NCBI RefSeq assembly: GCF_000146185.1
Contig: NC_012780.1
Span: forward strand, 496,001-560,000
Direction: 5' to 3'
Length of the DNA: 64,000 bases
Source: [Eubacterium] eligens ATCC 27750
GTDB lineage: Bacteria; Bacillota; Clostridia; Lachnospirales; Lachnospiraceae
In this document: in pieces, positions 40,961-46,839 of the stretch
Numbering within the stretch: position 1 is the first letter of the stretch
Layout of the letters: every line of letters starts with the position of its first letter
Notes under the pieces: generated by a model
Told to the model about the DNA's origin: nothing
What the model saw: the letters and a program-made list of their open reading frames with translations, nothing else
Databases searched by the model: none
Made by a program: the position numbers and the translations under genes

Positions 40961-41304
40961 TTAATTTTAGTACATTTTAAATTACTGCATTGGACTTTTA
41001 AAGCACTTATTTTCTTCCAAACATCCAATACCTCTCGGAATTCACATCAAATTGGACATTTTCCGCAAATTTTTTAACGAAAAGTCCAATTTCATGCACT
41101 TTTCAAGTGATTATGGACTTTTGGAACATTTAACCTGCCATGGAAGTCCAATCTAACACAATTACATTCTCCTTTTGGACTTGTTCCTGCGTGAAATCTC
41201 TTCTAACATCCAATCCGCCACAAATATGCTCACCCTCTGGACTTACCTATACATGAAATCTCTTCTAATGTCCAAATGAATCATATCCTGTAATCTCATT
41301 ATTG
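40961..41304. repeat. 62-bp-period hairpin array, GTCCAA/TTGGAC arms, six units (copy 1)
   Basis: Units begin at 40961, 41023, 41084, 41146, 41208 and 41270, giving periods 62, 61, 62, 62, 62. In units 2-5 the left arm (GTCCAA or ATCCAA) and right arm (TTGGAC, ATGGAC or CTGGAC) span exactly 35 nt. Unit 1 keeps only the right arm (40990-40995) and unit 6 only the left (41270-41275). Pairing extends outward in some units (AAAAGTCCA/TGGACTTTT in unit 3, AAGTCCAA/TTGGACTT in unit 4). Linkers after units 4 and 5 share TGAAATCTCTTCTAA. Loops differ. The array lies in the 639-base gap between the divergent Hpt and NSS genes; 40859-40960 shows nothing else. Confidence 0.88.
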
Positions 41305-45201: not shown

Positions 45202-45534
45202 ATGACAGCAATTGAAAAATATGTAGAAGCAATGGAAAACAAAGATTACGCAGGACTTGCCAATCTCTTTTCTCCAGACGGAATAATCAATGATTATTGT
45301 ACTAACTCAGCAGCCCAGAACGAATATCATATATATGGACGTGAAGCTATCAACATGTTCTTCCGTAACAAGTTCGGCTTCCGCAAATACTCTATCTTAG
45401 ATGGTGAAGTTGTGAATTCTACCCAGGCAGAATTCATCGCTAACTTCGGCGGTTACAACATCATGGCCATCGCTACAGTCCGTGAAGTAACAGAAGATGG
45501 GCTTATCAAGAGACTTACTGTAAGACCTAAGTAA
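45202..45534 (+). CDS. SnoaL-like / NTF2-fold small protein
   Basis: A 110-residue protein with the SnoaL/NTF2 pattern: helical start (AIEKYVEAMENKDYAGLANLFSPDGII) followed by a curved beta sheet (GREAINMFFRNKF, FIANFGGYNIMAIATVREV, LIKRLTVRP). Such cones act as isomerases, hydratases or binding proteins. It most likely works with the SDR in the same operon on a common small substrate. GGAGGGC precedes the ATG. Confidence 0.8.
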   Translation: MTAIEKYVEAMENKDYAGLANLFSPDGIINDYCTNSAAQNEYHIYGREAINMFFRNKFGFRKYSILDGEVVNSTQAEFIANFGGYNIMAIATVREVTEDGLIKRLTVRPK

Positions 45535-45564: not shown

Positions 45565-45622
45565 AGGGCATTTGAATTGCAAGTTAATCCCTTGCAATCC
45601 AAATGCCCTCATTTTTCTTTTT
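45565..45622 (+). terminator. Intrinsic terminator of the SDR/SnoaL operon
   Basis: GGGCATTTG and ATTGCAAG pair with CTTGCAAT and CAAATGCCC around a short loop; TTTTTCTTTTT follows. Confidence 0.88.
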
Positions 45623-45669
45623 AACATAAACAATAAACTTTTCAAGAGATGCCTTTTCTCTATCTCGAT

Positions 45670-45985
45670 GTCCAATCTGCCACTTTCTCGCAGTCGATTT
45701 GGACTTTCACTTACCTTCTATTCGCTTCTAGGTCCAATCGGTTATACCTGCGCGGACTTTTTGGACATCCACTTGGCTCTTGGATGCTTCAAAGTCCATT
45801 TTATTGTTCTGTCATGAATACTTTGGACTTTCTCTTGAATTTTCATCGTTTCAAGGTCCAATTCACCACTTTCTTGCAACTGTTTTGGACCTCCAACAGC
45901 CTTTTATCTGCTCCAAGGTCCAATCTGCCACTTTCTCGCAGTCGATTTGGACTTTCAGCAACCTTTTCTCTGCCTCAGCGTCCAA
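45670..45985. repeat. 62-bp-period hairpin array, GTCCAA/TTGGAC arms, six units (copy 2)
   Basis: Left arms start at 45670, 45732, 45794, 45856, 45918 and 45980: the period is exactly 62 bp five times running. Units 1-5 end in TTGGAC at 45704, 45766, 45828, 45890 and 45952, so each hairpin is exactly 35 nt and each linker 27 nt. Unit 6 has only the left arm. Units 1 and 5 are nearly identical through hairpin and loop (with an inner CTGC/GCAG stem), while units 2-4 have different loops. The pair outside the arm is A-T in unit 3, G-C in unit 4 and G-T in unit 5. Linkers are pyrimidine-rich (CCTTTTCTCTG-like). It lies between convergent genes, next to an azlD remnant. Confidence 0.92.
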
Positions 45986-46116: not shown

Positions 46117-46325
46117 TCACCTGAACACCAGTTGCACAAGCAGCATATAACATATCGTTCCGCCTGCGATAGAAACAAGCATCTGCTTTTTCCATTTGTG
46201 AAGAAGAACTGTCACAATAATTGCTATCAGTTCTGACAATCCATAACTGTAGCCTGTCACATTAACATTGCATATATGAGATAGAATTTCTTCCACCCCA
46301 TATTCTTGAACTTGTCAAGCATTGC
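46117..46325 (-). pseudogene. azlD: Remnant of azlD (branched-chain amino acid exporter small subunit)
   Basis: On the - strand the frame ending at 46117 reads ...VTGYSYGLSELIAIIV, then TVLLHKWKKQMLVSIAGG and TICYMLLVQLVFR-stop, which is the C-terminal half of AzlD. Only about 60 codons are in frame; no start codon with a ribosome site precedes it, the N-terminal half is missing or frameshifted near 46300, and no azlC is present. It is a decayed gene, bounded on its left by the 62-bp hairpin array. Confidence 0.7.
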
Positions 46326-46366: not shown

Positions 46367-46828
46367 TTAATACAGATTGACCTGTTTTTCCACAAGTCTG
46401 CTGCCTTCATACTTAAGCTTTATCGAGAAAAATCTCTCCTCCCCCGAAAGAAGAAGGTTAAGAAATACCCTGTCACCCTCCCATGTCGGAAGCTCGGGAA
46501 CTTCTTCTTTATCAACCCAAGCCAGTTCTCCTTCATCACATTCAATAAGCTCACCTGTAAAGCCATCTGCCGTAAATACACACATAAGCTCTGGCTCACA
46601 TTCATTACTTATAAATGTTACAAGCCCGCGGAATCTGTATGAAGTAAGCGTAAGACCTGTTTCTTCCTTTACCTCACGCACAAGACATTCCTCAGGAGTC
46701 TCCTGATTCTCAGCATGTCCGCCTACTCCAATCCATTTACCTTCATTAATATCATTATGCTTTTTCACTCTGTGAAGCATAAGATACTTCCCGTCCTTCT
46801 CTATATAACATAAAGTTGTAGTTATCAT
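46367..46828 (-). CDS. NUDIX hydrolase (MutT-like)
   Basis: A 153-residue protein with a complete NUDIX box: GGHAENQETPEECLVREV followed by KEETGL, giving the Mg2+-binding REVKEE core. The overall form (CYIEKDGKYLMLHRVKK, then KWIGVGGH) resembles MutT/8-oxo-dGTP diphosphatases. The ATG at 46828 follows AAAGGTAG, which overlaps the left copy of the 22-bp repeat; a TTG one codon earlier is less likely. Last gene of the leftward GH95-amidase-NUDIX cluster. Its substrate cannot be fixed from sequence. Confidence 0.88.
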   Translation of the reverse strand: MITTTLCYIEKDGKYLMLHRVKKHNDINEGKWIGVGGHAENQETPEECLVREVKEETGLTLTSYRFRGLVTFISNECEPELMCVFTADGFTGELIECDEGELAWVDKEEVPELPTWEGDRVFLNLLLSGEERFFSIKLKYEGSRLVEKQVNLY

Positions 46829-46839
46829 CAATTCTACCT

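Follow-up and report, generated by a model that had tools for sequence, protein, structure and literature searches.

REP and BIME elements are short intergenic repeats with inverted symmetry that occur alone or in regularly spaced clusters, with some families specific to one species and a cluster length that varies between strains, as described in passages of PMC3733652 and PMC2817692; tagged interspersed palindromic repeats are described in such passages mainly from Proteobacteria (PMC3733652). REP/BIME is the nearest described kind to the family of 62-bp arrays that we analysed in Lachnospira eligens, which are likewise intergenic and dispersed, with a cluster length that varies between relatives. 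The common explanation for tagged interspersed palindromic repeats is the action of RAYT transposases on their hairpins, and an associated RAYT gene is flanked by copies of the repeat, whereas here none was found beside a copy (the scan for modules covered 9 kb around the one Y1 match over the cut-off). A REP is an imperfect palindrome of 20-40 bp with a stable stem; the unit here is instead a 39-bp module with 6-bp inverted arms and no strong stem, whose arms show one both-sided change in 75 units. Whole REP elements alternate in orientation within a cluster, whereas all modules of a 62-bp array share one orientation and only their 9-bp half-sites alternate. The arms of the 35-nt stem, which closes between neighbouring modules, are uncompensated here, and the arrays mostly lie beyond a terminator-like hairpin, not directly at a gene 3' end. 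No clear GTAG or CGTC end tag was seen: the columns of 93 units have no conserved GTAG, and CGTC, present where the base before the left half-site is a C (54/93), forms part of the arm there and does not stand unpaired at an end.

Two further systems can be compared by description only. MIRU-VNTR loci, which number dozens, are made of intergenic tandem units of ~50-100 bp with variable copy number and uniform orientation, and the 62-bp arrays resemble them in being intergenic tandem units at many loci, with variable copy number and uniform orientation; they differ in host, in their paired inverted half-sites with a fixed gap and in an orientation that follows GC skew more closely than it follows the neighbouring genes. 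The pneumococcal BOX is intergenic and modular, and the number of tandem units inside it varies; the 62-bp arrays share the modularity and the variable unit number, and differ in that no separate end modules were seen. No description of this family was found among the titles and abstracts listed in literature searches.

Our analysis centred on array 2 (45637..45985, + strand) of the window, by which we mean the whole 64,000-nt stretch that was analysed. Its building blocks are a half-site R (TTTGGACTT) and a near mirror L (AAnGTCCAAT), which alternate when read in the CT-rich orientation. Five 39-bp R-L modules follow one another with a 62-bp period on the + strand, at 45699..45737 (R at 45699-45704, L at 45732-45737), 45761..45799 (where L is GTCCAT), 45823..45861, 45885..45923 and 45947..45985, the last part of which is an unpartnered L half-site at 45980. 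They are preceded by a decayed first module (45637..45675, +) that has ACTTTT at the R position and an intact L half-site at 45670. The sequence-only reading from which we started had listed six left arms, at 45670, 45732, 45794 (GTCCAT), 45856, 45918 and 45980, spaced 62 bp apart five times and closing five hairpins of 35 nt; reading of the sequence confirmed the arms, the spacing and the hairpins, four with a GTCCAA arm and the fifth with the GTCCAT arm, as well as the identity of the 35-nt stretches of units 1 and 5. The pattern is also far more frequent than chance would give: GTCCAA-N23-TTGGAC occurs 5 times in the window versus 0.01 expected from shuffles, with four matches in array 2 and one at 41146 in array 1. 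Its observation that the base pair just outside the arms changes while still pairing is right for units 3, 4 and 5 (A-T, G-C, G-T) and wrong for units 1 (T, T) and 2 (G, A), which are unpaired there; family-wide, this position pairs in 20 of 75 units. Array 1 (40990..41275, +), with modules at 40990, 41052 (26-bp linker), 41113, 41175 and 41237, belongs to the same family and is more degenerate.

Array 2 is flanked by convergent genes, a hypothetical protein upstream (45202..45534, +; WP_012740843.1 in the matching record described below) and a NUDIX family / 8-oxo-dGTP diphosphatase gene downstream (46367..46831, -), and a strong terminator-like hairpin (45565..45609, +) separates the array from the stop codon of the hypothetical-protein gene. 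Between array 2 and the NUDIX gene, the matching record annotates a short AzlD-domain protein at approximately 46117-46296 of the window (-, converted coordinates), and this stretch is missing from the relative G017 (named counterpart Eubacterium sp. AF22-9).

The genome (2.83 Mb, three contigs; G000 in comparisons) contains GTCCAA-N23-TTGGAC at 77 places and its reversed control at none, in the search that the sequence-only reading had proposed. When places of the pattern were grouped, at least 24 arrays emerged; the 2.14-Mb contig has 20 of them and the 627-kb contig 4, so that they are dispersed across the genome. Beyond the array ends, their flanks have only two short and weak mutual matches (E 0.009 and 7e-4). 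A 628,583-bp plasmid record of L. eligens strain FDAARGOS_1570 matches 5 kb of the window at 100%, and the tested stretches around all four arrays of the 627-kb contig are identical in it, so that the record probably comes from the same strain and contributes no variation. At individual loci, we observed that unit identity alternates in the L044 and L048 arrays, as if pairs of 124 bp had been duplicated, that the array at L038 5542-5880 adjoins the tmRNA gene and that the array at L039 directly follows what looks by eye like a tRNA sequence.

A census of half-sites, in which the spacing was not presupposed, showed that 22/24 arrays open with R and 21/24 close with L. The smallest state found is one 39-bp R-L module, TTGGAC-N27-GTCCAA. 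The 35-nt hairpin is present only between modules, and solo modules exist without it; the hairpin is therefore not the smallest unit, and the 62-bp period arises because 39-bp modules stack head to tail with a fixed gap of 23 bp. Adjacent units are 62 bp apart in 65/70 cases (the rest being 59, 61 three times, and 73), and 62 is the usual spacing in 22 of the 23 multi-unit arrays. The L-to-R gap is 23 bp in all 88 measurable intervals of this genome and in all 33 of the relatives, counts that leave out the intervals that could not be split (4 in G000 and 1 in relatives, with half-sites failing the motif rule). The R-to-L linker is 27 bp in 101/107 intervals of this genome and 38/41 of the relatives, with variants of 38 (three, in two arrays), 26 and 24 bp. 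For this genome and the relatives together, the gap is altered in 0/121 intervals versus 9/148 for the linker (Fisher p 0.005). The 38-bp linkers lie in the L047 and L050 arrays, are about one helical turn longer than usual (27+11) and carry extra sequence that looks similar.

Sequence outside the half-sites has diverged, whereas the half-sites themselves and the 23-bp gap are preserved, and changes in the 35-nt stem show no base-pair compensation. Divergence between arrays is 3.6% at the twelve arm bases, a set named beforehand, and 48% at the remaining 50 columns of the unit. The selection of units, which allowed at most 2 mismatches to the twelve arm bases, itself favours the arms; the arrays are continuous, however, so that few internal units can have been missed. 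The nearest duplicate pairs, with 1-4 differences (9 pairs), have none of their 26 differences in the twelve arm bases, where 5 would be expected, and the nearest within-array pairs, with 1-10 differences, have 6 of 225 there versus 43.5 expected. A wider set of 18 arm columns, picked from the same data, gave 5.5% versus 53% between arrays and 12/225 versus about 65 expected in near pairs. Shuffling of old loop variants between units could contribute to loop diversity, but the 0/26 arm differences in the most recent pairs argue against this as the whole story. Intergenic DNA near the arrays, compared with three relatives, accumulated 0.11-0.12 indels per substitution, a rate that would predict more length variation than is seen in units of this divergence. 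In 13 pairs of clearly orthologous units (at most 4 differences), the arms changed at 2/234 positions and the rest at 10/572, too few changes to show selection, and the constraint is for this reason read from paralogues. A larger comparison with best-match units (34 pairs, 29 kept after 5 that were too different had been dropped) gave 5/360 in the arms and 81/880 in the rest for G017, and 6/162 and 111/396 for G011 (named counterpart MAG S34M_St_44); it is given no weight, since best-match units may themselves be paralogues. That something maintains the arms and their spacing, as had been proposed for array 2, is thus supported by the low arm divergence and the constant gap across the family.

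Among 61 genomes, the exact pattern was present in 3, its own included, all of one genus. A sequence model (R1) found the repeat in 4/22 genomes of the genus, again including its own, adding one solo in G019, and under strict filters in its own genome only among 200 genomes of the family. Of the 17 stretches returned by a scan of genome contigs, 13 belong to two close relatives, and the remaining 4 are single matches from other taxa, which we judged to be chance; the one stretch from a viral scan, a single copy in an unrelated context, was judged likewise. As far as these scans indicate, the repeat is restricted to one clade.

At orthologous places in close relatives, the arrays are absent, solo, multi-copy or partly deleted. 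At L038, G017 has a solo between the same two flanks and is 248 bp shorter (4 x 62), and G011 also has a solo, with a different right flank; at L036, G019 has a solo between the same two flanks and is 186 bp shorter (3 x 62); the L034b array has one unit more than that of G011. At L034a, the site is empty in G011 and holds one module in G017 and four in G000. Empty sites correspond to the second L041 array in G017, G011, G019, G008 and G004 and to the L040 array in G011, G017, G019 and G008; at these two places gain would be the simplest reading. No target-site duplication was evident at the insertions compared between relatives, and extra tails accompany those at L034a, the second L041 array and L040. 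At the array 2 site, G011 has a five-module array and G017 keeps two units, after which ~560 bp are missing; a ~450-bp stretch containing array 1 has no counterpart in G017. In this relative, the arrays at L031, L042 and L043, together with array 2, were cut down or lost, and not in 62-bp steps, which shows that the arrays are dispensable. Against the view that simple tandem duplication does not leave such arrays, the changes in length at three loci are explained by units duplicated or lost in register.

A second repeat, of ~100 bp, was seen in the course of these comparisons. It carries GCACTTARTRAGC, or a sequence close to it, towards one end and has a palindrome inside. Its copies are at L032 4908 and 5811 (-), L053 4947 and 5985 (-), L058 4948 (+) and L062 5243 (+), and those at L032, L058 and L062 have no Rfam match. 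The L058 copy interrupts the counterpart of a terminator-like hairpin of G000. Also at L058, a degenerate single module of the 62-bp family (3733; G011:C17:92732) lies within an extra stretch of ~690 bp that G000 does not have there.

We lean towards the view that the family is a clade-restricted interspersed DNA repeat of the REP/BIME/MIRU type, the half-sites of which are DNA recognition sites. Paired inverted half-sites at a fixed spacing would also be expected of operator arrays, in which transcription factors bind to control the neighbouring genes. Some of the gene context fits this: an array lies on the 5' side of 27/48 flanking genes, and among the 30 of 48 neighbours scanned versus Pfam (20/27 with the 5' end and 10/21 with the 3' end towards the array) are two SNF-family transporters and two tRNA synthetase genes. 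The other neighbours with a match are varied, however (24/30 had one, with E up to 1e-6, and 6 had none), and no common pathway was evident among the 30. Since, in addition, orthologous loci of relatives lack the array or have a single module, and array 2 itself sits between convergent genes, we regard control of neighbouring genes as doubtful.

The polarity of the arrays bears on a further possibility. The CT-rich strand has a negative local GC skew at 24/24 arrays, in 21 separate stretches, and the skew polarity was the same at 16/16 loci tested in relatives, most of them not independent; 37/48 flanking genes agree with the polarity of their array, and at one array both neighbouring genes are on the opposite strand. 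If the skew marks the leading strand, which we took from it and not from a mapped origin, array orientation would track replication more closely than it tracks the neighbouring genes. Oriented DNA motifs recognised by a protein of replication, segregation or the nucleoid might look like this, and the fixed spacing and the three 38-bp linkers in two arrays, longer by about one helical turn, are in keeping with such a role in chromosome handling. Only 24 loci were found in 2.8 Mb, however, the repeat does not extend beyond a few close species, and several orthologous loci have lost it or are empty, which makes such a role improbable.

It is very improbable that the 35-nt stem-loops are transcribed and serve as structured RNA, in mRNA end protection, attenuation or as a small RNA. 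The arms do form inverted repeats in nearly every unit, and array 2 as a whole folds well: none of 100 shuffles matches it, whether folded as RNA of either strand (z -6.4 and -4.7) or as DNA (z -4.3). Whole-array folding covers two of the 24 arrays, and the other, the longer L041 array, reaches z -0.89 on the CT strand, with 20/100 shuffles as good, and a weak -2.35 on the other strand. RNA hairpins are not supported by the family. The commonest arm change in 75 units, G to A (8/75), has no compensating partner. In the 35-nt stem with its two outer pairs, 2 cells changed on both sides versus 0.5 in shuffles, counts that 12-36 of 500 shuffles reach; these slightly raised double changes sit in the two outermost columns, outside the arms. 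The 39-nt stem has 3 such cells versus 1.2 in shuffles, one of them within the arms. When the arms were held and the interiors shuffled, the 35-nt interiors showed no excess structure on either strand (mean z -0.08 and -0.06) and those of the 39-nt form folded slightly better than their shuffles (-0.59 and -0.56), probably because the conserved TT and AA beside the arms can pair; the alifold consensus was -1.33 kcal/mol. Rfam had no match in the window, and none over any array at nine further loci, where only RNase P and tmRNA were found. Gene 3' ends face an array in 21 cases, 19 of them within 700 bp without overlap, and a strong hairpin lies between gene and array at 16 of these 19 (counted without a control set), so that most such arrays would lie beyond the upstream transcript. 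Solo modules, moreover, do without the 35-nt hairpin altogether. One of the 16 hairpins, that of L032, looks like part of the second repeat. The suggestion of selection on hairpin shape in the sequence-only reading finds no support in these results, in particular in the uncompensated arm changes, the interiors that fold like shuffles and the weak consensus; of the two findings by which it had proposed to judge the array, copies do exist in related genomes, but there is no covariation in the arms.

Under neutral tandem duplication, a repeat that arose by accident would have spread and would grow by slippage, with nothing recognising its half-sites. Such a history would explain units that are often near-identical or alternating within one array, whole-unit differences between relatives at three loci and orthologous units that by themselves show no slower arms, but is very doubtful because the arms and the 23-bp gap resist change in units that are otherwise about half diverged, and because 62 remains the usual spacing in 22/23 multi-unit arrays although flanking DNA gathers indels. 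A CRISPR-like or guide-RNA array, in which constant repeats alternate with spacers unrelated to one another, does not fit, as the variable segments here share a consensus across arrays. Integron attC sites, with core sites GTTRRRY / RYYYAAC, do not fit either, the base after GTCCAA being T, not C, in 92/93 units.

If the family is indeed an interspersed repeat with recognition sites, the half-sites would be bound as DNA by a trans-acting protein whose binding requires two inverted sites a set distance apart, and the element may spread through this protein or through another that uses these sites. Insertion at replication forks or, alternatively, selection for one direction would account for the replication-linked orientation, and copy number would then shift by in-register recombination or slippage between units. 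For IS200/IS605 elements, insertion into the lagging-strand template could give a replication-linked orientation, according to a passage of PMC6006769, and fork-linked insertion of this sort would yield the polarity of the arrays; the 62-bp arrays differ in that no such transposase is tied to them and no stable subterminal hairpins were seen. A search of the genome for Y1 transposases gave one match over the family cut-off, of the IS200 type on the 627-kb contig, and one weak match, and no module was found in the 9 kb around the IS200-type match. That match is at G000:C2:120969-121328, with one TAG stop counted inside it. No protein that mobilises or binds the repeat was found in our searches. 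A bolder and rather unlikely version of the preferred reading is that of a new class of self-spreading bacterial repeat, in which inverted 9-bp half-sites would form a lattice with a gap inviolably fixed at 23 bp. A putative DNA-reading protein would pack along the array and also copy it to new sites at replication forks, keeping one direction with respect to the fork, without a hairpin or a known transposase.

A gut bacterium of the Lachnospiraceae thus carries an array family for which neither a RAYT nor a hairpin was found. Differences in array copy number could serve as a strain marker, and if a protein does read the half-sites, the family would offer a tractable system for studying how so short a stretch of non-coding DNA keeps its recognition sites and their spacing while the rest drifts.
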